NCBI GenBank assembly: GCA_947479085.1 | Contig: CANJYB010000013.1 | Location: 1-36,631 of the forward strand | Length of the DNA stretch: 36,631 nt | From: Bacteroidota bacterium | Lineage (GTDB): Bacteria; Bacteroidota; Bacteroidia; 2-12-FULL-35-15 | Reading direction: 5' to 3' | In this document: in pieces, positions 10,987 to 36,236 of the stretch | Position numbering within the stretch: the first letter of the stretch is position 1 | Layout of the letters: each line of letters starts with the position of its first letter | Position numbers and translations under genes: made by a program | Notes under the pieces: model-generated | Database searches by the model: none | Told to the model about the DNA's origin: nothing | Seen by the model: only the letters and a program-made list of their open reading frames with translations

Positions 10987-12462
10987 TTACTTAATATACA
11001 TCTTAATATTCTTTCTGATTTTTTTATTCAATTCGGGAGTTGCTTCTGTTTTGAGAATAAGAAAAAGGAATAATCCTCCGGCAATGCTGCTTCTTATAAC
11101 AATATCTATATAAAAATTGCTGAAAGCAGGAATAAAAAATACAGAGAAATAGGAGAGAAGGCCAATGCCAATAAGCTTTAAGGAATTGAAAGTATAGGGT
11201 TGCATTTTATATACTTTCATCAAAAAGAATAAGCGGACACAGTTGGCAAATATCACTGTAATGGCTGTAGCCATAGCCGAACCACTGATGCCATAGATGG
11301 GGATAAGAAAATAATTAGCCCCTACAGTAACAGCCACTGTAATAAATACAAAATAAGCTTCCCAGCGAAAATGCCTGCTATTGCTTATTATTACCTGGTT
11401 GATGCCCGTAGCCATTTCGGTAAGATAACCAATACTTAAAATTAAAATCACATTTTTGCCTTCAGCATAAGCCGAAGGAAGCAGGTGCATGATATTATCA
11501 ATATTCATCCAAATGCCTATAAATAGAAGTATTCCAATAGCAAGTTGCGAATTGCAACTCTGAATATATAATTTATAAATTTCTTCTATCTTATTATGCT
11601 TATAGTGTTCTGCCACTATGCCTGAAATAATGCGGTAAATACTGCGGGCAGGGATTAAAATAATCGTTCCGAACTGAAATGCAATCCGGTAAACACCTGT
11701 CTTTTCCTGTCCCAATATCTGGTTCACCATTATCATATCTACATATAATATGATAGCGCCAGCACCCACTGATAATAAAGAATAAAAGGCAAGGCTCATC
11801 ATTTCTTTTCGTAGTTCCTTACTCATAAAACCTCTTATGGGCTTCACATGCCATTCCTTTTGCCTGAAAATAAAAGCAACCAGCATAAGCGTGGGCAGGC
11901 AGGTAACAGTGATGTAAAGAAAAATGAAAACAGGGAAGGAAAAGAGGTTGAAAAAATAAAGTGTAAGAATGATTAAAATAAATATGCGTTGCAGAAAATC
12001 TTTGGTAAACGAACCAATAACCGAACTAAACCCTGCCCTGAGATAACTATCAAAAATATTGAAGAAAACTGTGAACAGTGTAAGTGGCATAAGGTAAAAT
12101 ATATAATCCACAAATAGTTTGGACTTAGCCATATTACTCTCAATCAGCCAAGGCTTCATAAAGGCGTACACTATCCAACAGAGAATAAAACCAGCCATTG
12201 TAATAATAATGGCATAAAATAAAAAGCCATGATGGCCTTTTTCTTTATTTCGGAAATAAGGGAAAAATCGAATGGTAACAGCAGTAAATCCAAGATTGGC
12301 AAACTGAGCAAACAAAGCAGAAAAGGAAATAAGAATTCCAATTACACCATTTTCGGCCGGGCTTAGTTGGTGAGCCAGCCATATAGTGGTCAGAAATCCA
12401 AGTCCTGCTCCCATATAGGAGTAGATAGCATTTCGAGTGGCTTGTCTTTCTATTATTCCCAA
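10987..12462 (-). CDS. Wzx-type polysaccharide flippase (MATE/MOP superfamily)
   Basis: This is a polytopic inner-membrane protein with about a dozen hydrophobic segments, a MOP-superfamily N-terminus (IERQATRNAIYSYMGAGLGFLTTIWLA) and the GAGAIILYVDMIMVNQILGQEKTGVYRIA region typical of RfbX/Wzx O-unit flippases. It would move a lipid-linked glycan across the inner membrane. The frame extends upstream to 12531, but those 23 residues (GCIREKSHKRPG...) overlap the PseI gene and look unlike a flippase start. The TTG at 12462 gives the usual (L/M)GIIERQ start with a 10-base overlap, implying translational coupling. It is the last gene of the glycan operon. Confidence 0.85.
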   Translation of the reverse strand: MGIIERQATRNAIYSYMGAGLGFLTTIWLAHQLSPAENGVIGILISFSALFAQFANLGFTAVTIRFFPYFRNKEKGHHGFLFYAIIITMAGFILCWIVYAFMKPWLIESNMAKSKLFVDYIFYLMPLTLFTVFFNIFDSYLRAGFSSVIGSFTKDFLQRIFILIILTLYFFNLFSFPVFIFLYITVTCLPTLMLVAFIFRQKEWHVKPIRGFMSKELRKEMMSLAFYSLLSVGAGAIILYVDMIMVNQILGQEKTGVYRIAFQFGTIILIPARSIYRIISGIVAEHYKHNKIEEIYKLYIQSCNSQLAIGILLFIGIWMNIDNIMHLLPSAYAEGKNVILILSIGYLTEMATGINQVIISNSRHFRWEAYFVFITVAVTVGANYFLIPIYGISGSAMATAITVIFANCVRLFFLMKVYKMQPYTFNSLKLIGIGLLSYFSVFFIPAFSNFYIDIVIRSSIAGGLFLFLILKTEATPELNKKIRKNIKMYIK

Positions 12463-13496
12463 TTGCCTTCTGTTAATGGAGTCCCTGTTTCCAGGTCTTT
12501 TGTGGCTTTTTTCCCTAATACATCCTCCCAATATTTAGGTGCTAATCCCAATGCCGGACGAATAATTCTTAAATTGTTCTCTGTAAAAGTTTCTCCCTTT
12601 TTTATATCAGCCGAAACATAGATAGAACGCTTGTAAAGCACAGATTTTTCTTCTGCCTTTTGTATTCCATAAAACACTTTTCCTAAAGCTAAAAAAGCCC
12701 GTTCTGATTCAACCACCAAGTCTTTCAATTCTTCCGGCTCTAATGAAAATGCGCTATCCACGCCTCCGTCAGCCCTTCTTAGTGTAAAATGTTTTTCAAT
12801 TACTCTTGCTCCTAAAGCAACTGCTGCAACAGAAACTCCTGTTCCCATAGTATGATCCGATAATCCAATCAGGCATTTATGTTTGGTATACATGTCAGGA
12901 ATAGTCAATAAGTTAGTGTTTTCTGGAGAAGAAGGATAAGTACTTGTACATTTTAAAAGTATAATATCCTTACAGCCTGCTTTACGTAAAACTTCCACAC
13001 TTTCTACAATATCTTCCAGATTACTTACTCCTGTGGAAACAATTACTGGTTTGCCTGTTTTAGCCACCTTGCGAAGTAGAGGATGATGAGTATTTTCAAA
13101 AGACGCTATTTTATAGGCAGGCACATTTAATGTTTCAAGGAAATCAACAGCCGTTTCATCAAAGGGAGAACTAAAGGCTTCCATTCCTTTTTCTTTTGCT
13201 CTGTCAAATATTGCTTTATGCCATTCCCATGGTGTGTAAGCCATTTTGTATAAGTTATGAAGTTCCTGTCCGTTCCATAATGAGTTTTTATCATCAATGG
13301 TATGAACTCCCTTCATTGTTATAGTATCTGCTGTGTAGGTCTGTAGTTTTAAAGCGTGTGCACCGGCTGCTGCAGCGGCATCTACTAATGCCAAAGCTCT
13401 GTCTAACGAATGATTATGATTACCACTCATTTCTGCAATGATAAAAGGTTTATGGTCACTGCCAATAATACTTTTTCCTATTTTTATATCTTCCAT
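12453..13496 (-). CDS. pseI: PseI/NeuB-family nonulosonic acid synthase (probable pseudaminic acid synthase)
   Basis: This enzyme condenses phosphoenolpyruvate with a 6-carbon amino sugar to form a nine-carbon nonulosonic acid. Its 347 residues show the NeuB barrel: AEMSGNHNHS at 21-30 (PseI-like), KLQTYTAD, LKCTSTYPSSPEN, LSDHTMG with His215 and EKHFTL with His236. Both histidines fall at the metal-ligand positions of NeuB. The C-terminal antifreeze-like SAF domain lies at about 285-347 (RSIYVSADIKKGE...LGLAPKYW). The AEMSGNHN and QTYTADT blocks are more like PseI than sialic or legionaminic synthases, but the exact substrate is inferred. It overlaps the HAD gene by 13 bases and the flippase by 10. 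Confidence 0.85.
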   Translation of the reverse strand: MEDIKIGKSIIGSDHKPFIIAEMSGNHNHSLDRALALVDAAAAAGAHALKLQTYTADTITMKGVHTIDDKNSLWNGQELHNLYKMAYTPWEWHKAIFDRAKEKGMEAFSSPFDETAVDFLETLNVPAYKIASFENTHHPLLRKVAKTGKPVIVSTGVSNLEDIVESVEVLRKAGCKDIILLKCTSTYPSSPENTNLLTIPDMYTKHKCLIGLSDHTMGTGVSVAAVALGARVIEKHFTLRRADGGVDSAFSLEPEELKDLVVESERAFLALGKVFYGIQKAEEKSVLYKRSIYVSADIKKGETFTENNLRIIRPALGLAPKYWEDVLGKKATKDLETGTPLTEGNWE

Positions 13497-14161
13497 AATT
13501 TATTTAATAATTCAGTCGTTAATTCGTCAAGGCTATTTATAATAAGATGAGCTTCATGAGCATCATCAATAAAAATATCTTTAAACATTCCTGTTTTTAC
13601 CCTTATTGTTTTATATCCTTTTTTCTTAAGATTCACGAAATCTTTTCTTGCATTATCAGCAATGTATACAATATTTCCAGGTTTTTCTTTACAAAGTTGA
13701 GAAATTTTATCAAAACAATAAGTAGATGGTTTTGCATTCTTTATTCCGTACCTGTGGGTTATAAAATACTTATCTACCGAGTTTATAAGCCCTAAAGCTT
13801 TAATTTTATTGTATTGAACATTTTTATTGCCATCGGTTACAATAAACTTTTTGATGGATTTAAATCTTTTCAGACATCTTTCACCTGTTTTCGAAACAGA
13901 AATAATTGGCTTATGAAGTCTGTAAATAGTCAAACATTTTTTTACTTCCTTAAGCGAATAAATATTGAAATTTTCAAGAACTGTGTTGAAAATTTTTCCT
14001 CTTCCGTTTTTCTCCAGTTCACCCAACATTATAGCATACGCTTTTTTGGGATTAATGGAATGATTTTTACCAAGATAATCCGACACCGCCCTGAATCCGC
14101 TTTTTACGAATTCAATTTCTTCATAAAGAGTATCATCTAAATCAAATACCAGAATCATCAA
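13484..14161 (-). CDS. HAD-superfamily hydrolase
   Basis: The 225 residues carry all haloacid-dehalogenase motifs: DLDDT at 7-11 (nucleophile Asp7, acid/base Asp9), FIVTDGNKN (motif II Thr), a motif III lysine (NAKPSTYCF), and IADNARKDF (motif IV). The subgroup usually dephosphorylates small phosphorylated substrates. Placed between the epimerase/ATP-grasp gene and pseI, it could dephosphorylate a nonulosonic acid 9-phosphate or a sugar phosphate precursor; this is inference from position. The start overlaps the upstream gene by about 20 bases. Met1 and Met2 are both possible. Confidence 0.75.
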   Translation of the reverse strand: MMILVFDLDDTLYEEIEFVKSGFRAVSDYLGKNHSINPKKAYAIMLGELEKNGRGKIFNTVLENFNIYSLKEVKKCLTIYRLHKPIISVSKTGERCLKRFKSIKKFIVTDGNKNVQYNKIKALGLINSVDKYFITHRYGIKNAKPSTYCFDKISQLCKEKPGNIVYIADNARKDFVNLKKKGYKTIRVKTGMFKDIFIDDAHEAHLIINSLDELTTELLNKLWKI

Positions 14162-16055
14162 TAATATAATCGTTAGGGTACCTGATTTGTTTTACTTCTG
14201 TTTCCGAACGGAAATAGGAATATTCACTTATGTCTTCTCCTGATGATTCAAGAATTGCCCAGTAAAAGCTGTCAAGCCCGGCAGCAATGCTTAGAGTGGA
14301 TGCTCCGCCAAATCGGGAATTACATTCAATCAAATGAACATTATTTTTATCATCTATTATAGCCTGCAAAACAATGTGCCCTCTTAAATTTAATTTAAAT
14401 ATGATATCTGAAAATAATTTCTCTAATTCATCTGACTTAAAGGAAGTGGTAATTTGAGACTCGCCATTTACCACCATGTCTCTTCTTCTCAATAATACTC
14501 CTTTCACATTCCCCTTTTTGTCTATATAAGCATCTACACTTATTTCGTTTCCCTTAATGAATGGTTGATAAATTGGGTTACTCAGGTTTTTCGAATGTTG
14601 TATAGCTTCTTCTTTTGTTAAATCTATCCCGATACTGATTGAACCGGCACCAAATCTTTCTTTTACTACGAATTTTTCTGATTGAATATCTTCGATTTTT
14701 AAGGAAGTTTTAATCGCATTAATGCTCTTGCCATTACAAAATTCATAAAAAAGATTTTTATCAAGGCAAACTTCAATCTGTTCCGGATTTGAAATAAGAA
14801 CATAAATACCACTTTTTTCTAAGTCATTGCTTATAGAACTAAAGAAAGTCAATTCCCCATCGCGGGTAGGAATGATTAATTTAATGTTGTTGGTTTTACA
14901 ATACTCAATTACTTTTTCTGTATTCAAATCTTTTATGAAAGGCATTAACCAAAAGTCGTCAACAAAAAATTTAGCGATACAATTTTCATTAACGTCACCA
15001 CCAATAATTTTAATTGAATCAGTAACTTTTTTTGCCGCCATCTTTACCGCCTTTACAAGAGGGACTTTTCTTGAAACACTTGTAATTAATATATTTCCCG
15101 GTTTTGGTTTGTCTTTTTGCTGACTTTTGTTTTTCTCAAATTCAATGATTTTTGGAATAGTATCTTCCAACTGGTGTGGAGGTTTCCAGCCAATTGTTTT
15201 CACATAATAGTCCATGTTGGCTTGAGATGCTTCGAAAGGAATATCAAGGTCCGATTCCTTGGTTTTCATTTCAGGGAAGTGTTTTTTCAATATGTCAACA
15301 ACTTCCTCCACTCTCCTGGCATTATCATTTCCAAGGTTTATTAATCCCTTCACTTCATAGTTTAATGCGAGTTTGATTAACCCCTCCGCAGTATCTTCGC
15401 AATAGATATAATCAAACATACCTTCTTTTTTGTAAACAGTAATTTCCTCACCATTTAACAAACTCCTTACCCAACGGGAAATAACGTCTTTTGAATTCTT
15501 TCCGTACCCACGGAAAATTCGTGCACACACTGAGGTAAATGGAACTTCAATAAAGCCATTTAAAAATCTCAATTCAATTTCGTGAAGCAACTTGGCAACA
15601 CCGGTTAAATTACGAGGATAAATAGGATCTCCCTCTGATAGTCTTTTTGCGGACTTTTGCGGAGTAGGGAAATTATAAAGTTCAGGATTGTATATCAGGT
15701 AACTACTTGCAAAAACAACCCTTCGCAAAGAAGTGATGTTTTTCATAACTGTCATTAAGTGGTTACTTAAGTTAATATTATGTTGGAAATTTTCTTTCCA
15801 GAATTCATAAGATTCAGTTGACCTTTCAAATGTTGCTGCCAGATGAAAAAAGATTTCAGGTTTGAAAGAATTTATTTCTCTTTCCGTAAGGCAATTCAAA
15901 TCGCCCTGTCGGTATAAAATATCTTTTGGCCAATGAGTAGGTCTTGGTTTTAAATCACCAACAAATACTTTTGCACCCATTTGGTGCAATTTTAAGACCA
16001 TTTCATTTCCTATCACTCCTGCACCACCACTAATAAAAACTCTTTTATCCTTCAT
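14142..16055 (-). CDS. fusion: NAD-dependent epimerase/dehydratase (SDR) + ATP-grasp ligase
   Basis: The N-terminal 300 or so residues form an extended short-chain dehydrogenase (KRVFISGGAGVIGNEM Rossmann loop, EIFFHLAATFE, VVFASSYLIY, then RIFRGYGKN and DYIYCEDTAEGLIKLA). The C-terminal 320 residues form a pre-ATP-grasp Rossmann part (NILITSVSRKVPLVKAVK) and an ATP-grasp fold (KFVVKERFGAGSIS, then HLIECNSRFGGAS) of the PylC/carbamoyl-phosphate-synthase type. The YxxxK catalytic tyrosine appears replaced by threonine (TGVAK, Thr151/Lys155 from this start). The ATG at 16055 begins right at the Rossmann strand; an earlier ATG at 16085 would overlap the acetyltransferase. The protein probably modifies a nucleotide sugar and couples it to an amino acid or similar acid; substrate unknown. 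Confidence 0.8.
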   Translation of the reverse strand: MKDKRVFISGGAGVIGNEMVLKLHQMGAKVFVGDLKPRPTHWPKDILYRQGDLNCLTEREINSFKPEIFFHLAATFERSTESYEFWKENFQHNINLSNHLMTVMKNITSLRRVVFASSYLIYNPELYNFPTPQKSAKRLSEGDPIYPRNLTGVAKLLHEIELRFLNGFIEVPFTSVCARIFRGYGKNSKDVISRWVRSLLNGEEITVYKKEGMFDYIYCEDTAEGLIKLALNYEVKGLINLGNDNARRVEEVVDILKKHFPEMKTKESDLDIPFEASQANMDYYVKTIGWKPPHQLEDTIPKIIEFEKNKSQQKDKPKPGNILITSVSRKVPLVKAVKMAAKKVTDSIKIIGGDVNENCIAKFFVDDFWLMPFIKDLNTEKVIEYCKTNNIKLIIPTRDGELTFFSSISNDLEKSGIYVLISNPEQIEVCLDKNLFYEFCNGKSINAIKTSLKIEDIQSEKFVVKERFGAGSISIGIDLTKEEAIQHSKNLSNPIYQPFIKGNEISVDAYIDKKGNVKGVLLRRRDMVVNGESQITTSFKSDELEKLFSDIIFKLNLRGHIVLQAIIDDKNNVHLIECNSRFGGASTLSIAAGLDSFYWAILESSGEDISEYSYFRSETEVKQIRYPNDYIIDDSGI

Positions 16056-16063
16056 ATTATTAT

Positions 16064-16633
16064 CTATTTCACCGTATTTAAACAACCGTGTATCAATGAA
16101 TCTATGTATTTATTATCTATAAATGTATGTTCTTTCATCCTTCCTTCCAAAACAAAACCTGACTTTTCTAAAATAGAAATGTGCAAGGGTCGTATATCAT
16201 ATGTTTCAGTAAATAACCTGTTAAATTTCAGATTCCCAAAAGCAACTTTTTTTATAAGAGATAGGTAATTAGTCATATCAGACTCATAAATGGTATTGTC
16301 CTTTAACCTTTCAGTATTTACAAGGAAGGAAACTTCCGCCCGGTTGTCCATCCATGAAATATGAACCAAACCGCCATAGCCTACAAATTCATTTTTATAA
16401 TACAAACCGAATAAAATCTGGTTAGGCCTGTTTTGTAACATCGTAGGCCAAATAGACTTTTCGTAATACGCAATTTGCTTTTCTTTTGTTAGCAGTTCGT
16501 TCTGCCTGAGTATGTTCATTTGCTCATTTCTCCATTTCATAATGGATGATATATTTTCATCGCAAATGGGAGATAATTTATAATCGTTATACAAATACTC
16601 TTGAACAGACAGGCAATTATACGATCTAATCAT
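16064..16633 (-). CDS. GNAT-family N-acetyltransferase (PseH-like position)
   Basis: This 189-aa protein resembles the RimJ/PseH branch of GNAT enzymes. It has MKWRNEQMNI near the start (KWRN as in PseH-like proteins), FGLYYKNEFVGYGGLVHISW in the central sheet, AEVSFLV, and a C-terminal RPLHISILEKSGFVLEGRMKEH block corresponding to the second half of the acetyl-CoA fold. In pseudaminic acid synthesis such an enzyme acetylates the C4 amino group of the sugar. That role is inferred from its PseI neighbour. Its start shares one base with the preceding methyltransferase's stop codon. Confidence 0.75.
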   Translation of the reverse strand: MIRSYNCLSVQEYLYNDYKLSPICDENISSIMKWRNEQMNILRQNELLTKEKQIAYYEKSIWPTMLQNRPNQILFGLYYKNEFVGYGGLVHISWMDNRAEVSFLVNTERLKDNTIYESDMTNYLSLIKKVAFGNLKFNRLFTETYDIRPLHISILEKSGFVLEGRMKEHTFIDNKYIDSLIHGCLNTVK

Positions 16634-17538
16634 TATATTTTCATTTTGTAGAAGCCTGTAATCTGTCTTCCTAATCCAACAGATGCCATACTTTCATAAA
16701 CATCGTTTATTTTTTTGCCGGCTTGTTCGTGAAACAAGTTTTCGAATTCAATTCTTGCATTGTTTGCATTTTTCCCGGTCGATTTATCTTTAATATAATT
16801 AGATGAATCGTTCATTAAAAACAAATCTATTGGAAAATCAGTAATCATTTTATGGTTCCCCCAATTAACATGAGAGCATAAGTTATTTAATCCTTCTGCA
16901 TTAAAGTAGGAAAGATGATCAGGTAACGCAACCCAGAACTCAGATTCTACTTTTTTAGTTTCAAGTAGATTGTTTTGAATAATGGAAAAATCATTTGGCA
17001 CCTGAATAACCAAAACAGTGTTTTCATTGGATAAACTCTTACAGTCTTCAAGTAATTTCTTTGGGTCAATGACATGTTCCAAAATATTACTCAACCAAAT
17101 CACATCAAATTTTTCTTTGTCTTTTATTAGTTGCAATATGGTTTGGTAAATATCGCCTGTTTTTAAATTTGGTAACACTTGAGGGTTAATATTTCCGCAA
17201 CCAAAATTTGAATAGTCTAAACCCAATACCTCCCAATTCCTTTCTGAAAAATATTTTAATGTAAATCCTTCTCCACAACCAATATCAAGAAGTTTTTTAC
17301 CATCATGATTTTTAGTTTTAAATAAGTCTTCTATTATCCAGAACTTTTGCTCTATTTTATTGCTAAAATATTTCAAGTCGTTTTCATTATAAAAATGAGA
17401 ATAATTTCCCTTTTCATCCTGGTAATATTTTTTTGAATAATATTCATTCAACTCAGATTCCCGTGGCTTATTTCTAACCTCGTAATAACCATAATTGTTC
17501 TTAATAATACTCTGATTAATAACAGTCTCTGAATTCAA
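16633..17538 (-). CDS. class I SAM-dependent methyltransferase
   Basis: This 301-aa protein has the glycine-rich SAM loop LLDIGCGEGFTLKYFSER, acidic loop VLGLDYSN and post-motif FDVIWLSNILEHVIDPKKLL, typical of family 11/12-type methyltransferases in glycan clusters. The N-terminus (NYGYYEVRNKP..YYSKKYYQDEKGNYSHF) is like sugar-modifying methyltransferases, which add O-methyl caps or decorations. No zinc-cluster cysteines at the N-terminus argue against the C-methyltransferase (NovU/TylC3) subgroup. It is two bases from the dioxygenase gene and one base overlapped with the acetyltransferase gene. Confidence 0.8.
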   Translation of the reverse strand: MNSETVINQSIIKNNYGYYEVRNKPRESELNEYYSKKYYQDEKGNYSHFYNENDLKYFSNKIEQKFWIIEDLFKTKNHDGKKLLDIGCGEGFTLKYFSERNWEVLGLDYSNFGCGNINPQVLPNLKTGDIYQTILQLIKDKEKFDVIWLSNILEHVIDPKKLLEDCKSLSNENTVLVIQVPNDFSIIQNNLLETKKVESEFWVALPDHLSYFNAEGLNNLCSHVNWGNHKMITDFPIDLFLMNDSSNYIKDKSTGKNANNARIEFENLFHEQAGKKINDVYESMASVGLGRQITGFYKMKI

Positions 17539-17540
17539 AA

Positions 17541-18365
17541 TTACAATGGATTTATTAATTCAATATTATTTTTCTTTAACAGGCTTATTGCCTGCTCATT
17601 GTAAATTGACGCCCTCGCATGTGCCAGAGTATCCTCCCTTTTCAAAGTATATTCATTTATATACCTGTCCAGGTGAGAAGATTTTAATGCGAAGGTCATA
17701 AATAAGGAAATACGTTCCTGTTGTTCTTCTTTTTTAAGAAAAGAAGGAATAAGATTTTCCTTTCCGGAAGTATTAATAGAATATTTAGGAAACATTTTTA
17801 ATCGCACCGCATTTCCACTATGAATCGTTTTCAGGCTCCATACACCAACATCACCCACTTCACTATCCACAAATATAGGTTTTCCATCTGCTTTTTTATG
17901 TGTACCTACTTTTATTTTTAGTCCTCCGCTATAGTTTTTATGGTCCTGTAAATAAATTCCCAAACGAATAAGAGTATAATCTCCTTTCCAATCAGGGCCG
18001 GTTAAGTCTGTTCGGTCAATATTATCCCTGTGAAATCCCCTTAAACCGGTGCCTATCTGGTATGAACTATCACCAAAATAAATAAGATCATTACTTCCCA
18101 AAATGGTACGGGCTATTTTCAAAATTCTATCATCCAATAAAGCATGACGTAATAATTCCTTGCTTAGTAAGTCGCCTTTTGAATATTTGGCTTTAGTAGG
18201 AAGGTGAGGTAACTGAAAATCTAATTTCTTCTGTTTATCAATCTCGTATTGTTTATAAGCTTCTTCCCGCATTTGTTTTATTTCCCCGGGAGTAAAAACA
18301 CTTTTCACTACTAGGTAGCCGTCTCTTTCAAAACTTGCTTTATCTATTATTAATTCTTTCGACAT
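17541..18365 (-). CDS. phytanoyl-CoA dioxygenase (PhyH)-family Fe(II)/2-oxoglutarate oxygenase
   Basis: The protein has 274 residues from the ATG at 18365 (MSKELIIDKASFERDGYLVV). The frame stays open to 18422, but that start would overlap the cytidylyltransferase by 29 bases. PhyH hallmarks are present: FERDGYLVVKSVFTPGEI near the start, GFHRDNIDRTD with the HxD metal motif (His112, Asp114), SGGLKIKVGTHK in the jelly-roll, and the distal IHSGNAVRLK (His182) with Arg for 2-oxoglutarate. It would hydroxylate a glycan or sugar substrate. Such enzymes are occasional members of surface-glycan islands, but no substrate can be assigned. Confidence 0.8.
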   Translation of the reverse strand: MSKELIIDKASFERDGYLVVKSVFTPGEIKQMREEAYKQYEIDKQKKLDFQLPHLPTKAKYSKGDLLSKELLRHALLDDRILKIARTILGSNDLIYFGDSSYQIGTGLRGFHRDNIDRTDLTGPDWKGDYTLIRLGIYLQDHKNYSGGLKIKVGTHKKADGKPIFVDSEVGDVGVWSLKTIHSGNAVRLKMFPKYSINTSGKENLIPSFLKKEEQQERISLFMTFALKSSHLDRYINEYTLKREDTLAHARASIYNEQAISLLKKNNIELINPL

Positions 18366-18393
18366 TGTATTTGTTTTACTAAAATCAGGGTAA

Positions 18394-19128
18394 TTATACT
18401 TTCTTTTGCTCAATATGAGCATTTATTGACACTAATTCCGGATGTTGTAACAAAATGCTTTCAATTTCATTGTATGACAAGGCATCCGCATTATACTTTT
18501 CAATCAGTATTTTTATTAATTCAAAATCATCTTTTGTATCAACAGTAATTCTTAATCCACTATGGTCTTCAGTTTGTTTTACAGGGTACAATTCTACTTT
18601 CCCAGAACGATTTTTCCAAATATACGGTGTTACATGTTCCAGGTCGCTCTCATCTGTTGCTTTTTTAAATGCTTCTTGCAGCAATTGAAAACTGAAAATT
18701 TCAAAATCAAAACCTCTCGCAAAGGTACGCTCCAATCCGTTTGCCATATATAAATTTTGATTATTTAACTTAAAGTATTTCTCCATACTGTTTCTGATTA
18801 AATGTGGGTCAATCAGAGGGCAATCAGAGGTAACCCTAACAATCGTCTGGAAATTAAATTTGCTAGCGGTTTCAAAATACCTACTTAAAACATTATCCTC
18901 ACTTCCCCGATGATATTTAATATTGTTTCGCTCTGCATATTCGCAAATAATATCGTCTGTAGCATTTGTTGTTGTGGCTATTGCAATATCAAATCCGGTA
19001 GCTTGCAATCGTTCAATATGATACTGAAGAAGTGATTTATTTTTTACTTCTTTAAATACTTTACCCGGCAGGCGGGTGCTGGTCATTCTTGCCTGGGTAA
19101 TAATACCTATAGTTAAAGCTGGAGACAT
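18394..19128 (-). CDS. SpsF-type cytidylyltransferase
   Basis: This 244-aa nucleotidyltransferase of the SpsF (COG1861) group has QARMTSTRLPGKVF at 12-25 (nucleotide-binding signature), LLQYHIERL, AIATTTNATDD, HRGSEDNVLSRY and VRVTSDCPLIDP with the metal-binding aspartate. It most likely activates the nonulosonic acid as its CMP derivative, standing in for PseF/NeuA, which is absent. In Bacillus, spsF occurs with the NeuB-like spsE, supporting this pairing. It is separated by three bases from the upstream methyltransferase. Confidence 0.8.
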   Translation of the reverse strand: MSPALTIGIITQARMTSTRLPGKVFKEVKNKSLLQYHIERLQATGFDIAIATTTNATDDIICEYAERNNIKYHRGSEDNVLSRYFETASKFNFQTIVRVTSDCPLIDPHLIRNSMEKYFKLNNQNLYMANGLERTFARGFDFEIFSFQLLQEAFKKATDESDLEHVTPYIWKNRSGKVELYPVKQTEDHSGLRITVDTKDDFELIKILIEKYNADALSYNEIESILLQHPELVSINAHIEQKKV

Positions 19129-19131
19129 CTT

Positions 19132-19935
19132 TTAGTTCTTAAATTTCCAGACAATAAGGTTAGTGGTATTTAACGGAACCAGTCCAAAAATATCAGTTTC
19201 CAGTTCCAATATTTCTATATCCGGCCTGCTTTTCAAAACAGAAATTAAATTTCTGTTATAATCATTCAATTCAAGGTACTTATTTCTTAGTAAGCCGAGC
19301 ATTGTCGAACGTTCGTTAACTATTGTAGGTTCAAAATGAACTATATAATTTATCTTGTTCTTTTGTTTTTCGAGGTTATTTATAATTACAGTCGCATCGG
19401 GAATTTGTTCAATACTATGAGTGGTAAAAATGGTTGAATTTGGTTTAATAAATTCATAATCATTTTCGGTATAATAATTAAACTCACGAACATCTAAACC
19501 GATTTTTTGGCCAATTTTTACAGCATTTGAGGAATAGTCTCCGCCATAAAAGTTCTTTCCCAATGCTTCTATATTATATCCATAACCGCAACCTAATTCG
19601 CAAATGTTTTCGGAAGCATATTTATTTAATTTAGATTGAATTAAATCGTAATAAATGGTTCGTGCCTTTTCCACCGAAGTTTTAAATATTTCATCTCCTT
19701 TCGAAATAAACACCAATCCTTCAGTTGGATGCATACCTGCCTGCTCAAATTCCTTTGCTTTATACTCTGCTGCGGTTTTAAAATCGAATTCTAAAAGGCG
19801 GGCATATTTATCTAAATTATATTCATTTTCCACCTGTTGTATATCCCTCTTTTTTTGAAAAGGAGTAAGTCCAAGCAGTCGCGAAGTCCATGGGTTTTCT
19901 TTGTTTAAGTAATCATTAATCGAAACAGGAGTCAT
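19132..19935 (-). CDS. SAM-dependent methyltransferase (second of the cluster)
   Basis: This 267-aa protein contains a SAM-binding core in its middle: NICELGCGYGYNIEALGKNF, acidic GGDYSSNAVKIG, and STIFTTHSIEQIPD as post-motif. The N-terminal 100 residues (NPWTSRLLGLTPFQKKRDIQQVENEY) form an accessory region not recognised further. Its place at the head of the tight operon suggests action on the same sugar or its lipid-linked form. It is distinct in sequence from the other methyltransferase at 16633-17538, so the cluster may place two methyl groups. The start codon is the first ATG after the 156-base gap to the membrane-protein gene. Confidence 0.75.
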   Translation of the reverse strand: MTPVSINDYLNKENPWTSRLLGLTPFQKKRDIQQVENEYNLDKYARLLEFDFKTAAEYKAKEFEQAGMHPTEGLVFISKGDEIFKTSVEKARTIYYDLIQSKLNKYASENICELGCGYGYNIEALGKNFYGGDYSSNAVKIGQKIGLDVREFNYYTENDYEFIKPNSTIFTTHSIEQIPDATVIINNLEKQKNKINYIVHFEPTIVNERSTMLGLLRNKYLELNDYNRNLISVLKSRPDIEILELETDIFGLVPLNTTNLIVWKFKN

Positions 19936-20091
19936 AAATAGCTTTAATTTTCAGCAAATGTAATATTATTATCAATAAAATGGTCTTTGATGGTTTTAAA
20001 AACTATTAAACAATAAGGGTGAAGTAATAGTAAAAATAAAACTATTTTTAATTACTTACTTAAATTAGAAGGAATATTTAAAACACTTTAT

Positions 20092-21510
20092 TTATTTGTT
20101 TAATATTCTTTGTAAAAAAGGCAATCTTTTTACCAATTTTTCTTTATCCAGTAAAAACAAGAATGAGATAAGTAAAAACGGTAAAGCCGGAACTTTATAT
20201 CTGGCAATAGCTCCAAGAATTGGAGTGGTTTCTCCAATAATTAAAAACTGAATGAAAGTAAATGAAATACAGAATAAGAAATATTCCCAGCGAATGGAAG
20301 AAAGTGGTTTAATAAAAAAGACACAAAACATAATAATAAGAATAATTAGCAGATTCTCAGCGCCTGCCATCAGTATCATTGGTGATTTTACTTCCCATAA
20401 ATAAGGTCTTAAAACCGTATTTACTAAAGCCTGGGGGGCATTATGAATTAATGATAAAAGTGTTGGTTCTAAAGGTTGAATATTAATCACACTTCCCGCA
20501 ACAGGTATTGGTTGACTATAGGCATCGGTTAATTTACCGTAAGCAAGCTGATTAAACTCTAATTGCTTTTGAGATAAAGTAACCAATGGATTTTGAATAG
20601 ATGTAAAACGGTCAATATTTAAACCAACCAGGCCTAAAAAAATGGTGATTAATAGAAATTTAATAAACAGTTTTGAATTGCTTGTTTTGTTTATCCATAT
20701 AATAAAAATGAGCCCGGGAACAATGGCAAGCCAGACATAAAACTTTGAAAACGCCAATAATAAACCTACCGAAAGGCATATTAAAATTGATTTAAGAGTA
20801 AATAAACGAGTGGTATAATAAATCAAAAGACCAAGAGCAAAAAAGATTAAACCTTCCTTTAATACACCTGATCCCCAAAAAAGAACAGAAGGCAACAGAA
20901 AGACTGCAAATACCAATTCATGTTTTTTCTCTTGTAAAAATGGAATGAAGGTTTTGTAAATGCCTGTAAGTCCCACAAGAGAAAGAAAACATATAAAAAC
21001 GGTATGTACATTATAATAACCAAATGAAAAGAATCGAACCAGGCTATTAAAACGAATGATTGTATGGCTGTCGTTATAAATGCTACTGTCAATTTTTCTG
21101 GCCCAGTAGTGCATTTGTGCGTAATAGGTATCGAATTCGGGACTGGAATTGCCAATCCCAAGAAGGATTCTGAAAAAATGAGAAGGTCGGGTTTTTAAAA
21201 TATCAAAAAGAATTTTGCTGTCATCAAAATACTTGTAAATATCAGCCGTGGAACGGTCAGTATAATAGAATGTATATATAGCCCATAAAAGTAATCCGAA
21301 AAATATTTTTAAAATAAAAATAAATGAAAGATTTCGTTTAGACAAGCCGGGCAATTCAAAAAACTTCATCCTGTAAATGATGAAAATAAAAAGAAAGGTG
21401 TAAGTAATGGTTAAAAGGACTTCCAATGGATGAATTGCTTTAAATTTGGGCAAATATAACAATAAGAGAACTGTTGAAAACTCAAAATAAAATATTTTGG
21501 GCTCATTCAT
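20092..21510 (-). CDS. polytopic membrane protein, candidate Wzy-like glycan polymerase
   Basis: This 472-aa protein is mostly hydrophobic, with about ten or more likely transmembrane segments and a longer external loop around residues 320-380 (IDRFTSIQNPLVTLSQKQLEFNQ...). It has no motif I can assign with certainty. The arrangement (many helices, one large loop, glycan cluster) fits O-antigen polymerases or related membrane glycosyltransferases, which are poorly conserved in sequence. It is separated from the tight operon by 156 bases and may have its own promoter in the divergent region shared with purL. Confidence 0.6.
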   Translation of the reverse strand: MNEPKIFYFEFSTVLLLLYLPKFKAIHPLEVLLTITYTFLFIFIIYRMKFFELPGLSKRNLSFIFILKIFFGLLLWAIYTFYYTDRSTADIYKYFDDSKILFDILKTRPSHFFRILLGIGNSSPEFDTYYAQMHYWARKIDSSIYNDSHTIIRFNSLVRFFSFGYYNVHTVFICFLSLVGLTGIYKTFIPFLQEKKHELVFAVFLLPSVLFWGSGVLKEGLIFFALGLLIYYTTRLFTLKSILICLSVGLLLAFSKFYVWLAIVPGLIFIIWINKTSNSKLFIKFLLITIFLGLVGLNIDRFTSIQNPLVTLSQKQLEFNQLAYGKLTDAYSQPIPVAGSVINIQPLEPTLLSLIHNAPQALVNTVLRPYLWEVKSPMILMAGAENLLIILIIMFCVFFIKPLSSIRWEYFLFCISFTFIQFLIIGETTPILGAIARYKVPALPFLLISFLFLLDKEKLVKRLPFLQRILNK

Positions 21511-24552: not shown

Positions 24553-25146
24553 ATGAAAAAACGAATTTCAATTTATCTTATTTGTTTCTGTATTCAGGTG
24601 TTTTCCACCTTGTCTGCTCAATTGATTCACGTAAGAATTGACAATGTTATAAATGTTGAGTGTAACCGGGCCTCATTGGGTTCAGCAAAAGTAACTGTAA
24701 CAAACCCAAACCATACTCCATATACTTTTCAATGGAGTAATGGCCAAAACACAACAGGTGTAATTACTTCCACAGCAACAAATCTTGAAGCGGGCACTTA
24801 TACAGTTACAATAACTGATAGCCAGGATGGAGATTTTGGTTCTGCAGAAGTTACTATTACTGAAAGTGAATGTGAAGTAATTCCTGAACCGGTTTTTACT
24901 CCTAATGGTGATGGGTATAATGACTCCTGGTTTATTGATAAAGCTCAGTATTTTGATGATATGTGGGTATTGGTTTATAATAGGCTCGGGCAAAAGGTAT
25001 TTGACAGCCGTGGGGTGTATACGGCCTGGGAAGGAAAAGATTTATTTGGCGGCTCTTTACCTGATGCTTCTTATTATTATGTTATTTACCCAAACCGGAC
25101 TGATAAAAGTAGGATTGTTAAAGGATCTGTTTCCATAGTTAGATAA
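24553..25146 (+). CDS. small SprB-repeat protein with T9SS type B (CHU_C) tail
   Basis: This 197-aa protein has a signal peptide (to about 22, STLSAQ). A single SprB-type repeat follows (HVRIDNVINVECNRASLGSA, then YTFQWSNGQ...LEAGTYTVTITDSQ). Then comes the CHU_C domain starting PVFTPNGDGYNDSWFIDKAQ and containing VLVYNRLGQKVFDSRG and a C-terminal SRIVKGSVSIVR. It is a miniature relative of the giant adhesin SprB. Its position directly before the PorP/SprF gene repeats the known sprB-sprF pairing, where SprF-type proteins attach type B cargo to the surface. Confidence 0.9.
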   Translation: MKKRISIYLICFCIQVFSTLSAQLIHVRIDNVINVECNRASLGSAKVTVTNPNHTPYTFQWSNGQNTTGVITSTATNLEAGTYTVTITDSQDGDFGSAEVTITESECEVIPEPVFTPNGDGYNDSWFIDKAQYFDDMWVLVYNRLGQKVFDSRGVYTAWEGKDLFGGSLPDASYYYVIYPNRTDKSRIVKGSVSIVR

Positions 25147-25147
25147 A

Positions 25148-26101
25148 ATGAATAGAATTGTATTAATAGCATTAACTTTTTTTCTTGTTGCTAAGGTAAA
25201 AGCTCAACAGGAAGAACAGTTTACACAATTTACCCTGAACGATTATGGTTTAAATCCTGCTGTTGCCGGTAGTTCTAATAAATTAACTTTTTTAGCCGGT
25301 AAACGAACACAATGGAGAGGTTTTCAGAACAATCCTGAAACCGAATTCGCAAACGTTACTAAAGCTTTAGGGAAAAAGGGTTATCGACATTTCTGGCATG
25401 GAGTAGGAGTGTCTGTAGAACAGGATAGGTTTGGTGTTTTTACAAAAAAAATGGCTTATGCTTCCTATGCAATTCATTTAAAAGTTTCTCCAAAGTACCG
25501 TGCAGGATTTGGAGTTGCGGTTGGTATGAAAAGTGTAGCGTTATCAAATATTGTGTATGATATGAACGACCCTGTTTTTGCTGAAAGCAACAGAGCTGTT
25601 GTGGTTCCTGATATCATTCCTGGAATATATCTTTATTCTCAAAAATTTTCTCTAGGTGTTTCTTTGCATAATATGTACAAGAATAAGTTATCTATGGGAA
25701 GCAAACAAATCGGTTCCGGTGATAAACTTCTTCCAACAGCTTATATTAGTATTTCTAAGAAAATAATTTCAGGGGGCTACAGTTTTATTACTATTCCTGC
25801 TATAAATATTCAAACTAATTTCAGAGGCATTCCTTCCCTGAATCTTAATGTAATTACATATTATAAAAAACGTGTTGGGCTTGGTGTAAGCTACAGAATG
25901 CATGATGCAGTATCAGGAATTCTGCAGGTACGTATTTATAAAAACCTTGTTGTTGGTATTGCATACGACTTAACCATTTCCCGCTTTCGTTACGGTAAGG
26001 CTAATTCGGATGAAATAATGATTGGTTATTCTCCAATAATGAGTACCGAAGATTTAGAAAAGAAAGGCACTACCAACTGTCCTAAGTTTGAAATATTTTG
26101 A
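25148..26101 (+). CDS. PorP/SprF-family outer-membrane protein
   Basis: This 317-aa protein has a signal peptide (to about 20, KVKAQQ). The family's QFTQFTLNDYGLNPAVAGSS start is followed by a series of beta strands with aromatic ends (HFWHGVGVSVEQDRFGVF, AIHLKVSPKYRAGFGVAVG), KRTQWRGFQNNPE, VPDIIPGIYLYSQKFSLGVS, and a C-terminal ISRFRYGKANSDEIMIGYSP strand. PorP/SprF proteins are beta-barrels associated with T9SS-dependent delivery of type B cargo such as SprB. One base separates it from the CHU_C protein gene, making a cargo-partner pair. Confidence 0.93.
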   Translation: MNRIVLIALTFFLVAKVKAQQEEQFTQFTLNDYGLNPAVAGSSNKLTFLAGKRTQWRGFQNNPETEFANVTKALGKKGYRHFWHGVGVSVEQDRFGVFTKKMAYASYAIHLKVSPKYRAGFGVAVGMKSVALSNIVYDMNDPVFAESNRAVVVPDIIPGIYLYSQKFSLGVSLHNMYKNKLSMGSKQIGSGDKLLPTAYISISKKIISGGYSFITIPAINIQTNFRGIPSLNLNVITYYKKRVGLGVSYRMHDAVSGILQVRIYKNLVVGIAYDLTISRFRYGKANSDEIMIGYSPIMSTEDLEKKGTTNCPKFEIF

Positions 26102-33746: not shown

Positions 33747-36236
33747 TTACTGTTTTACCATTCTTTTAGTTTCAAATATTTTTCCATCTACCACTAAAGT
33801 ATAAGTATAAAGCCCGTTTGTTAAATCCTGTGCAAACACATTCAACTGCCCTTTTCCTTTTTGGGTAAGTTCAACCGATTGAATTAATTTACCACCTGCA
33901 TTGTAAAACAACATTTGTGCTTTGCTTACATCATCCGGTAAAAAATAACCAATGGTAGTTTGCTCTGCAAAAGGGTTAGGAGAATTCTGATCCAAAATAA
34001 TGCTTTGCCCATCAGTTAGTTTTACATCTGTTTGCGAAGTAGTATTGTTTTTGTTTCCATCGTTATTATTTCCATTACCTCCGTTATTGTTGTTATTCAT
34101 TTGCTGAGGAGAATGATTTCTGTTACAGCATTCGTTTATCAAATCGCTTAAAGTATTGATTTGACTTTGCATAGATGTATTGTTTGCTTTTAAGCTATCC
34201 ACCTGATTTTGTAAGGACGTGTTGATAGAATCTTGTTTGGTGTTTTCTGATTTTAAGGAATCGTTTTTTGAACTTAATTCCTGAAGTCCTCGAGTCAGCA
34301 AAGGAATGAATTCTTCGTATTTCAGAGCTTTATAGTCAACAGAAGGAGTAACAATAGTACCTGATGAATCCACAGTTTCAGGTTTATGCCCATTCTGAAC
34401 TACCAAAGGAAAAACTGCTTCAACCTCTTCAGCTATAAATCCTATTTGTTTTTGGTTAGAAAAATTCATCCCATAAATATTGGCCGTATCTAAGAAGTAA
34501 GTTTTAGGTTTCAAACTTTTTATGATGTCTAATGCCCCGGTTAATGAGTCTATTTGAGTTTTAAATATTTGATCAGAAATTGTAGCTACGAAATTAGCTG
34601 CTCCACTTCGAGGCCCATTAATCCATACATCTCCATCAAAAAAACCTGCATAACTTAAAGCTACCGGAAAAGAAAAAGGGGATGGTTTAGCATTACCATA
34701 AATTGCAATGTTAGAAGGCATAGGATATGTAAGAGGATTACCGGGGGATGTAACAATAGAATAAACACCATAATTGGATGCTCCGTCTTTAACTTCAGCC
34801 AAAACCCCATTGTTTATACCTGTATTGGTTCCCTGTGATAAAAACACCCCTCCATTATTATATTTACCCGTTGAGCTGGAGGCATCGCCCCATACAGCAG
34901 AATTAATATGATTAGCATTTTTTGAAAGAGCCAATACTCCGTATGCGTCATTTGATGTGGGTTGAGTAGTTTCACTATAAACTCCAATGTTGTTAATTCC
35001 TCTATGAGCAAAAAACTGACCTCCGTAATTTGTATTTGCGCTTCCCGCATCATTTAAGCCCAAAACAGCTGTGGTAGAATATAAAGATGTGGTGCCAGTA
35101 TTGGTGAATAAACCCGCTACAGGTTGAGCTGTTGCAATAGTAAAATCATTTTTAACATCCAGTTTGGCTTGTGGGCCTGCCGCATTGCCTGACAGGCCTA
35201 TGCCTACATTTATATCATTATCTCCTAAAATCATATTATAGCTATTGGTAACAATAGCATTATAACCAACTGCTGTTGAGTAAAGAATTCCTCCCATCGA
35301 AGAATTTGTTTGAGCACCAAGCAAGGTAGTATACCTGCCTGTAAATGCATTACCCGACTGATAACCTACAGCTACATTATCATTACCAGCCACATTTCCA
35401 TAACCGCTTTGATTACCAAAAAATGAATTGTTATCAGCACCTAGTATTTGATAACCGGAATGATCTCCAACGCAGGTATTACTACTTCCCGGAATATTAA
35501 GATAAGCGGCTTGAGACCCAACAAAAACATTATTTGTAGATTTTGCGCTCAAGTATCCTGCAGCATAACCGACAATTGTATTATTTTCTCCATCATTAAA
35601 TTTGCCCGCATCCTTACCAATATTAACATTTTCACTACCAAGAGTTATACCCTCACCAGCATTGGAACCAACAGAAGTGTTTTCGATTCCGGTGTTGTCA
35701 TTGGTGCCTGCTTTGTATCCCACAGATGTATTAAACTGGGGTAAAAGGGCCGCATTACCTGCATCAATTCCTACATAAAGATTGTCAGAATTGTTATTAT
35801 TCCATAATATATATTTACTTGTTGACGAATACTGGTCATACATTCTATAACCATAAGCATTGTTATTGATGTTAATGTCTCCATTATCAACATCAAGTCT
35901 AAAATTAGGGAAAGTCGCGAAATTAGTAGGTGTAGAGGGGAAACCAGAGTTGCCTATGCCCACAAAACCATCTGTCAATGGGTTGGTACTCGAAGTAATA
36001 ATCATCTTTTGATTTAAAAATGTTCCAGCACCCGCATTAGTGTAAAAATTAATAGGGTAATTAGCTTCATGTTTTATTTCCAAAGGAAATAATGTTGATG
36101 CATCCCAACCACAATACTGGGTGGCTGCAGTACCAATATGTCCAAACAAACCGGAAACATCCGATTGTGAAACGCCTTGTTTAATGATAAGCACAAATAA
36201 AATAGTGCATGCAATTTTGTAAATTAATTTTTTCAT
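33747..36236 (-). CDS. T9SS-secreted protein with trimer-head-like repeats and S74 (tail-spike chaperone) domain
   Basis: The 829 residues comprise a signal peptide (to about 23, IKQGVSQS) and an N-terminal domain. A stretch at about 155-345 follows with repeated (N/S)T(S)VG..AG units (TSVGSNAGEGITLGSENVNIG-like), as in YadA-type head beta-rolls. An S74 domain lies at about 548-655 (ATISDQIFKTQIDSLTGA, SLKPKTYFLDT, KQIGFIAEEVEAVFP, DYKALKYEEFIPLLT), followed by a coiled coil (LKSENTKQDSINTSLQNQVDS) and an asparagine/glycine-rich linker. A T9SS type A tail occupies 748-829 (LDQNSPNPFAEQTTIGYF). S74 domains help phage tail spikes trimerise and usually cleave themselves before the SD motif. Here the part after the cleavage site carries the export tail. 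It is probably a surface fibre. Confidence 0.85.
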   Translation of the reverse strand: MKKLIYKIACTILFVLIIKQGVSQSDVSGLFGHIGTAATQYCGWDASTLFPLEIKHEANYPINFYTNAGAGTFLNQKMIITSSTNPLTDGFVGIGNSGFPSTPTNFATFPNFRLDVDNGDININNNAYGYRMYDQYSSTSKYILWNNNNSDNLYVGIDAGNAALLPQFNTSVGYKAGTNDNTGIENTSVGSNAGEGITLGSENVNIGKDAGKFNDGENNTIVGYAAGYLSAKSTNNVFVGSQAAYLNIPGSSNTCVGDHSGYQILGADNNSFFGNQSGYGNVAGNDNVAVGYQSGNAFTGRYTTLLGAQTNSSMGGILYSTAVGYNAIVTNSYNMILGDNDINVGIGLSGNAAGPQAKLDVKNDFTIATAQPVAGLFTNTGTTSLYSTTAVLGLNDAGSANTNYGGQFFAHRGINNIGVYSETTQPTSNDAYGVLALSKNANHINSAVWGDASSSTGKYNNGGVFLSQGTNTGINNGVLAEVKDGASNYGVYSIVTSPGNPLTYPMPSNIAIYGNAKPSPFSFPVALSYAGFFDGDVWINGPRSGAANFVATISDQIFKTQIDSLTGALDIIKSLKPKTYFLDTANIYGMNFSNQKQIGFIAEEVEAVFPLVVQNGHKPETVDSSGTIVTPSVDYKALKYEEFIPLLTRGLQELSSKNDSLKSENTKQDSINTSLQNQVDSLKANNTSMQSQINTLSDLINECCNRNHSPQQMNNNNNGGNGNNNDGNKNNTTSQTDVKLTDGQSIILDQNSPNPFAEQTTIGYFLPDDVSKAQMLFYNAGGKLIQSVELTQKGKGQLNVFAQDLTNGLYTYTLVVDGKIFETKRMVKQ

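Follow-up and report, generated by a model that had tools for sequence, protein, structure and literature searches.

A probable pseudaminic-acid-type gene cluster of a Bacteroidota bacterium in which a four-gene cassette replaces PseG and PseH

The canonical route to cytidine monophosphate (CMP)-activated pseudaminic acid (Pse) in Campylobacter jejuni and Helicobacter pylori employs PseB, PseC, PseH, PseG, PseI and PseF, and also occurs in a form in which PseG and PseH are fused. Here we describe a cluster of ten genes on the reverse strand (21510 down to 10987) of a stretch of Bacteroidota DNA, hereafter the window, which spans positions 1 to 36,631 of a 120-kb contig (CANJYB010000013.1) in a 4.28-Mb draft genome. 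PseB, PseC, PseI, a CMP-activating enzyme and the gene order of a congener locus are common to this genome and the canonical system. In place of PseG and PseH, however, the window carries a cassette encoding a methyltransferase (MT2), a GNAT-fold protein (GNAT-A), a fusion of SDR and ATP-grasp domains, and a HAD phosphatase, and an SpsF-type enzyme stands in for PseF. Sequence comparisons make it very probable that the operon specifies a pathway of the pseudaminic acid type whose core has been swapped.

Several described systems share parts of this arrangement. The Bacillus subtilis sps pathway to legionaminic acid (Leg) has an SpsE-type synthase and an SpsF-type cytidylyltransferase, the latter being the proposed CMP-Leg step, but requires SpsG and SpsD; the accessible text of that report mentions no ATP-grasp protein, and its spsF mutant was not complemented (PMC7439481). 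Because a CMP step of this type has been proposed in B. subtilis, and sps homology served to identify PseF in Clostridium (PMC13317340), the SpsF part of the window is not new. Shewanella oneidensis has PseB and PseC homologues, no clear PseH, PseG, PseI or PseF orthologues, and an operon (sfmABCDE) with NeuB-domain, methyltransferase and ATP-grasp genes, together with a methylated substituent on a likely nonulosonic acid; its operon differs in having a thiamine pyrophosphate enzyme and an SDR and no HAD or GNAT gene (PMC3765264). Subgroup ID of the Aeromonas flagellar islands likewise has no PseG orthologue; its class III aminotransferase gene is separated from pseI by genes for a hypothetical protein, a methyltransferase and a HAD-IA hydrolase, and the authors suggest chimeric proteins to account for pseG/pseH variability (PMC7874193). 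Both systems are likened to ours from their published descriptions, the accessible text of which names no PseG substitute. Tannerella forsythia, also of the Bacteroidota, has a Pse5Am7Gra that carries N-glyceroyl at C7 as proposed here; its cluster, however, is reported with pseG and pseH, and the gene for the glyceroyl group "remains elusive" (PMC6388019, PMC6120980). A flagellin glycan of Clostridium difficile likewise depends on an ATP-grasp gene (PMC5207246). Among the matches listed in our literature searches, which left subscription journals outside, the accessible texts named no PseG substitute and no glyceroyl ligase for nonulosonic acids. In Neisseria, the ATP-grasp domain of PglB2 acylates a UDP (uridine diphosphate)-4-amino sugar with glycerate to give the glyceramido sugar GATDH, as proposed here, although the sugar is of the bacillosamine type and the domain is fused to a phosphoglycosyltransferase. 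The search returned no paper on PglB2 with ATP-grasp.

A preliminary description of the window had proposed an unusual, dedicated nonulosonic acid operon in which only PseI- and PseH-like steps of the known pathways are present. The cluster itself is real and looks functional: its genes are intact open reading frames (ORFs) with profile matches and a conserved order, and neighbors from MT1 through PseI overlap or lie 2-3 bases apart. The proposal of a dedicated operon is upheld. The statement about the steps present holds for PseG and fails for PseB and PseC. A search of the genome, as that description had advised, located PseB (TIGR03589, 504 bits, cut-off 408) and, next to it, PseC (TIGR03588, 479 bits, cut-off 423.5) on contig C15; for PseG (TIGR03590) the sole match in the genome scored 24.3 bits (cut-off 153.6) and is MurG (302.8 bits as MurG), and a hidden PseG was therefore rejected. 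In a congener (G451, locus L130) the order is HisS, a 666-residue protein, PseB, PseC, MT1, SpsF, PhyH, a PseG-PseH fusion of 501 residues (PseG 199 bits, cut-off 153.6), PseI, Wzx, a CHU_C-like gene and LytTR. Contig C15 corresponds to the left half of this locus (HisS 67% identical over the 135 residues compared, a 656-residue protein 58%, PseB 91%, PseC 85%) and the window to the right half (MT1 84%, SpsF 79%, PhyH 65%, PseI 86%, Wzx 67%, LytTR 58%), so that the window derives from a locus of the L130 type that has been rearranged. Between MT1 and Wzx the single PseG-PseH fusion has been exchanged for MT2, GNAT-A, SDR/ATP-grasp and HAD, and it is because of this swap, invisible from the window alone, that no PseG was found. 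In a second congener (G536, locus L131), SpsF (74% identical to that of the window), PhyH (71%), a PseG-PseH fusion, PseI and Wzx follow the L130 order; the methyltransferase ahead of SpsF is a different one, and two extra genes are inserted at that point. Judged from these loci, SpsF, PhyH and MT1 belong to the ordinary version of the cluster in this genus. CMP activation by an SpsF-type enzyme, as first suggested, agrees with the presence of SpsF in both congeners; PhyH and MT1, which had been counted among the unusual features, are rejected as such because PhyH is present in both of the PseG-bearing congener loci fetched and MT1 in one. The unusual portion is narrower than first thought, namely the cassette replacing PseG and PseH. 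The ten genes, all on the reverse strand, are as follows.

20092..21510, reverse strand: polytopic membrane protein, 472 residues, 10 hydrophobic segments; putative Wzy-like role from its position
19132..19935, reverse strand: MT1, S-adenosylmethionine methyltransferase-like, 267 residues, PF13489 17 bits (below the cut-off of 27); genus base cluster
18394..19128, reverse strand: SpsF-type cytidylyltransferase, predicted CMP-nonulosonic acid synthetase, PF02348 82.8 bits
17541..18422, reverse strand: PhyH-type Fe/2-oxoglutarate oxygenase, PF05721 40.3 bits; genus base cluster
16633..17538, reverse strand: MT2, Methyltransf_23 methyltransferase, PF13489 70.3 bits; first cassette gene
16064..16633, reverse strand: GNAT-A, GNAT-fold protein and predicted PseG substitute, PF13420 73.2 bits (cut-off 24.3); second cassette gene
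14142..16085, reverse strand: fusion of an SDR (about residues 1-328) and a PylC-like ATP-grasp domain (about residues 329-647), PF01370 66.7, PF21360 50.1 and PF02655 46.0 bits; third cassette gene
13484..14161, reverse strand: HAD phosphatase, partner of the ATP-grasp domain, PF13419 37.1 bits; fourth cassette gene
12453..13496, reverse strand: PseI, pseudaminic acid synthase with NeuB and SAF domains, TIGR03586 490 bits (cut-off 340)
10987..12531, reverse strand: Wzx-type flippase, PF01943 39.4 bits, counterpart of the gene after PseI in L130

Support for an exchange of function between PseG and GNAT-A is provided by their distribution. In a sample of 395 genomes from the phylum, 57 have PseI at E<=1e-100, accompanied in 48 by PseG at E<=1e-15; GNAT-A, at E<=1e-35, occurs in nine genomes, which are precisely the nine PseI genomes without PseG (0/48 versus 9/9). 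The search was repeated on 305 genomes of the class, where 46 of the 54 PseI genomes were new: none of the 31 with PseG at E<=1e-10 has GNAT-A at E<=1e-10, as against 14 of the 15 without PseG. Pooled over 103 PseI-bearing genomes, GNAT-A is found in 0/79 with PseG and 23/24 without it (Fisher p ~4e-22, kinship ignored). The exception, G429, has neither gene, and its PseI lies on a 3.3-kb contig that starts inside PseI. The PseI-positive set includes one partial match just below the cut-off (G336, 339 bits), and three genomes outside that set (G051, G124, G326), in which GNAT-A was matched only weakly (27-31%, E 1e-11 to 1e-15), were not scored as having it. We then placed these labels on a PseI tree of 58 rows, being 34 of the 79 genomes with PseG, all 23 with GNAT-A and a Falkowbacteria locus (L032) labeled GNAT-A although its genome bin is partial; eight of 66 rows had been removed (seven duplicates and G429). 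The label changes 12 times on this tree, at least nine of them on supported branches, and nine independent pairs are all opposite (p 0.004); the pair test takes its labels from the searches behind the tally and so contributes a control for kinship and no new data. Both types occur within six genera (g1, g6, g15, g205, g239, g250). Moreover, no PseG match lies within 7 kb of PseI in any of the 24 GNAT-A clusters, and none was obtained at E<=0.001 in genomes G072 and G279 or in the partial, 1-Mb genome of L032.

GNAT-A, first described as PseH-like, belongs to the GNAT superfamily (PF13420) but reaches only 29.5-29.9 bits with the PseH model (TIGR03585, cut-off 93.1) and has lost the coenzyme A (CoA) loop. 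The PseH domain linked to PseG in L130 is also under the cut-off (27.6-30.5 bits), so the score alone cannot tell the two apart; the lost loop does. In the alignment, the first glycine of the CoA pyrophosphate loop (Q/RxxGxG/A) is present in 0/24 GNAT-A proteins and 22/23 PseH-like domains. This was scored by alignment column, a plain regular expression being unreliable because it overlooked several PseH-like controls and matched off-site in two GNAT-A proteins. An Asn before the last helix, kept in 22/23 PseH-like domains, is Arg in 22/24 GNAT-A proteins, which have their own invariant residues (R35, N36, Q38, R43, Q44, H91, W94, E100). Gly103 and Asn131 of H. pylori PseH contact CoA (PMC4363471), and we infer that they are equivalent to the two aligned columns. 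GNAT-A is fused to a PseH-like GNAT in 7/24 cases and to ATP-grasp in 1/24. In genome G464 it stands, with no PseG, beside a PseH of 155.7 bits (cut-off 93.1), and so is not simply the PseH. A minimal cluster (L102) comprises PseB, PseC, a cytidylyltransferase, a GNAT-A/GNAT-B fusion and PseI with no other unassigned gene, and a second one (L107) likewise holds no further unassigned gene. PseI requires a free sugar; UDP must therefore be removed, and GNAT-A is the constant candidate. The best reading of these comparisons is that GNAT-A performs the UDP-release step of PseG.

The neighborhood comparison advised at the outset gave two answers: L130 and L131 share the base cluster, with a PseG-PseH fusion, and the cassette recurs in G072, G523, G549, G279 and L032. 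The order GNAT, SDR/ATP-grasp, HAD, PseI is repeated in G072, G523, G549 and the Falkowbacteria contig L032, where a TylF-like methyltransferase precedes it; in G279 the GNAT is fused to ATP-grasp with no SDR part, in the order PseC-SpsF-MT2-[GNAT-A fused to ATP-grasp]-HAD-PseI. By this comparison the cassette gene order is conserved beyond chance. G072 has PseB-PseC-methyltransferase-SpsF-MT2-TylF-like methyltransferase-GNAT-A-SDR/ATP-grasp-HAD-PseI followed by a glycosyltransferase-like gene, DUF7033 and Wzx, and G166, of the same genus, has PseB-PseC-SpsF-PseG-GNAT-PseI followed by the matching glycosyltransferase-like gene (72%), DUF7033 (56%) and a Wzx. Similarly, G523 and G549 have the cassette, and G497, of the same genus, has a PseG-PseH-like fusion. 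PseB and PseC lie inside the same cluster in G072, G523 and G549, and MT2 is present in five of the six ATP-grasp-type clusters, the sixth contig beginning after the MT2 position. A scan of genome contigs with exact peptide patterns of one protein returned one relative, L032, and a plasmid scan one weak match, in Persicobacter. A scan of viral contigs returned one distant GNAT-A relative (29%), on a 52-kb contig from IMG/VR (L148); a phage scan with this ORF as query gave no match. The region L148:1936-7694 encodes SpsF-like, PseC-like (163 of 423 bits), GNAT-A-like and formyltransferase-like ORFs, a weakly NeuB-like ORF of 197 residues (23 bits) and a PseB-like ORF (345 of 408 bits), and no PseG match was found in the 13.6 kb examined. 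A GNAT-A-type pathway is thus apparently carried by a virus.

Every one of the 24 GNAT-A clusters contains an N-acylating candidate: a PseH-like GNAT in 13, a formyltransferase in five (the reference formyltransferase has PF00551), and ATP-grasp with HAD in six. PseH-like GNATs and formyltransferases are known kinds of enzymes for N-acylating 4-amino sugars, and ATP-grasp would therefore, by position, be a third. The metal-binding ExN motif is kept in 6/6 ATP-grasp domains (ECNSR in the window), and the domain, at 170 of 390 bits, is under the NCBIfam equivalog cut-offs. It probably forms an amide, as the preliminary description had proposed, and is best read as a predicted N-acyl ligase in the PseH slot. 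The HAD motif DLD(D/N)TLY occurs in 6/6, and a HAD related to that of the window is found in 17 of the best 29 ATP-grasp loci, 15 of the 17 being without a NeuB match in the flanks fetched. Twelve ATP-grasp/HAD loci without NeuB, viewed more widely, contain a PglC-type sugar transferase (10), a DegT aminotransferase (7) or a PglF-like dehydratase (5); these were typed by BLAST against few references, which may have missed some. A Leg-like locus (L064:6689-14014) has a dehydratase, a DegT aminotransferase, ATP-grasp, a HAD-like ORF of 104 residues (36.7 of 165 bits), NeuB and NeuC (both over their cut-offs), a CBS-nucleotidyltransferase and a cytidylyltransferase, with no acetyltransferase among the eight ORFs profiled. 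The best PseH-like matches in G072, G279, G523 and G549 score 42, 40, 32 and 33 bits. Having a phosphatase as partner points to an acyl donor that is phosphorylated. Our guess, by analogy, is that the acyl group is derived from glycerate (N-glyceroyl), which is attractive because this group is known at C7 of Pse in T. forsythia, where its gene is called elusive. A di-O-methylglyceric acid derivative of Pse is also found in C. jejuni (PMC3958885), and a methylated glyceroyl group would give MT2 and TylF a job.

In the route that we propose, PseB and PseC would form UDP-4-amino-4,6-dideoxy-L-AltNAc (AltNAc, N-acetylaltrosamine), the 4-amine of which (N7 of the final sugar) would be acylated by the ATP-grasp domain and HAD. 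The group added would be other than acetyl, our favored guess being glyceric acid supplied by a phosphorylated compound such as 3-phosphoglycerate, and MT2 would methylate this N7 acyl group. GNAT-A, its acetyl-CoA site lost, would then release UDP instead of PseG, PseI would join the free sugar to phosphoenolpyruvate, and SpsF would activate the product with CMP; MT1 and PhyH may add further decoration, and Wzx would export the glycan. The comparisons themselves establish the gene identities, where PseB and PseC lie, the lack of a recognizable PseG, the exchange of one gene for four, the mutual exclusion of PseG and GNAT-A, and the missing CoA loop. All catalytic roles within the cassette are predicted ones, in particular the release of UDP by GNAT-A and the nature of the acyl group. 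We regard it as moderately probable that a CMP-activated nonulosonic acid of the pseudaminic type is made and exported in this way by the operon together with the PseB and PseC encoded elsewhere in the genome. More tentatively, and with doubt slightly outweighing confidence, we suggest that GNAT-A represents a new class of UDP-sugar hydrolase, with a PseH-like fold that no longer binds acetyl-CoA but keeps the UDP-amino-sugar pocket and with at least nine exchanges for PseG on the PseI tree, and that ATP-grasp with a phosphatase is a general N-acylation module. If so, this module takes over from PseH, LegH and PglD in pathways of the Pse, Leg and bacillosamine types, yielding N-glyceroyl-type sugars. 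Nonulosonic acids cover the surfaces of bacteria and can imitate the sialic acids of a host, yet the genes behind the variety of their N-acyl groups are poorly known. The cassette supplies a candidate protein for the PseG step that is missing and a candidate pair of genes for N-acylation with groups other than acetyl, and it suggests a rule by which seemingly incomplete clusters can be read.

A number of observations weigh against this interpretation. The PseH model does not discriminate, only one of five PseH-like proteins from GNAT-A or PseG clusters passing it (155.7 bits; the others 24-62), and AlphaFold models of the fusion and GNAT-A are unusable (mean pLDDT, the predicted local distance difference test, 41 and 34). 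A very divergent PseG could escape the thresholds of the tallies, the pathway is split in two over separate contigs of a draft assembly, and PseB of G279 was looked for within 20 kb only. The proposed route gives no work to the SDR half, which has the NAD-binding GGAGVIG, but in 5/5 fusions the catalytic Tyr of YxxxK, the catalytic pair of extended SDR epimerases and dehydratases, is Thr (TxxxK), and G279 does without this half. In one of the 12 wide loci (L062) a PglD gene lies within 8 kb. The genome has other PseH-like GNATs (C6:33355-33759, 79.6 bits, cut-off 93.1; C19, 52.3 bits), so that acetylation from elsewhere is possible and the proposed acylation step is less secure. In a PseG-bearing locus (L112:6010-11048, genome G363), ATP-grasp stands before PseI beside a YfcE-type phosphoesterase, possibly another phosphatase partner, and a NeuD-type acetyltransferase-like ORF.

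The main alternative sees GNAT-A as one more N- or O-acetyltransferase of the ordinary kind whose CoA loop has degenerated, leaves the removal of UDP to an unrelated housekeeping hydrolase, and attributes the exclusion to the inheritance of two types of cluster rather than to substitution of function. In its favor, the relationship of GNAT-A to the GNATs is clear (PF13420, 73 bits), the best PDB matches of its profile are N-acetyltransferases including PseH (4ri1, E 2e-4), the PseG/GNAT-A label is clustered on the PseI tree (only 1-3 of 500 shuffles being as low), and we know of no GNAT fold that hydrolyzes UDP, which also counts against our own proposal. Against this stand a distribution of 0/79 and 23/24 with at least nine supported independent switches, the absence of the loop glycine from all 24 proteins, minimal clusters that offer no other unassigned gene, and G464, which already has a PseH above the cut-off; we consider this alternative unlikely. 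The proposal that HAD is the missing link, either as a nonulosonic acid 9-phosphate phosphatase in a deaminoneuraminic (KDN)- or neuraminic acid-like route from hexose 6-phosphate or as the UDP-releasing enzyme itself, draws on its position beside PseI in the window, G072, G279, G523, G549 and L032 and on the use of HAD phosphatases in KDN-type routes. HAD, however, follows ATP-grasp rather than NeuB into the loci counted above, and 10 of the 12 wide loci have a PglC-type sugar transferase, an enzyme that requires UDP to be retained; no HAD matching that of the window lies within 7 kb of PseI in 18/24 GNAT-A clusters, and PseI passes its own cut-off and has an 86% identical counterpart adjoining PseG in a congener. 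This reading is very improbable, and the 9-phosphate phosphatase was rejected because HAD accompanies ATP-grasp into loci without a NeuB match in the flanks fetched.

The chemistry of the product leaves room for two other views. In the first description the sugar was a nonulosonic acid or related compound unlike Pse or Leg, made without PseB and PseC, neither of which, nor PseG, is seen within the window; with PseB and PseC above their cut-offs at the syntenic site on C15, and inside the cluster in G072, G523 and G549, we give this view hardly any credence. It is quite possible, although we lean the other way, that ATP-grasp and HAD add an amino acid or another acid rather than glycerate, giving a sugar like the Leg5GluNMe7Ac of C. 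botulinum, which is accompanied by a PtmH-type methyltransferase (PMC13317340), or that of Shewanella, where ATP-grasp is paired with a methyltransferase (PMC3765264). The phosphatase next to ATP-grasp would be more easily explained by a phosphorylated donor, and N-glyceroyl is already known at C7 of Pse in T. forsythia (PMC6388019). ATP-grasp ligases as a group commonly join carboxylates to amines, which is in line with an amino acid or similar acid.

As for the remaining genes of the cluster, the 472-residue membrane protein has no Pfam or NCBIfam match and no counterpart in L130 or L131. MT1 is weakly recognized by its profile, yet has the 84% identical counterpart in L130 noted above. The PseF model (TIGR03584), searched against the cluster only, gives 19.6 bits (cut-off 205.7) for the SpsF-type enzyme. 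The HxD...H metal site of PhyH, judged by eye from the alignment, is kept as HRD and a distal His in 3/3 proteins (window, L130, L131), and the best PDB match of PseI by sequence is a pseudaminic acid synthase (8h2c). The true start of Wzx is probably downstream of the listed TTG. Elsewhere in the window, type IX secretion domains are consistent with Bacteroidota; a CHU_C/SprB-repeat protein followed by a PorP/SprF-type protein (24553-26101) forms a type IX secretion pair, and positions 33747-36236 encode an 829-residue protein with a Peptidase_S74 (endosialidase chaperone) domain.

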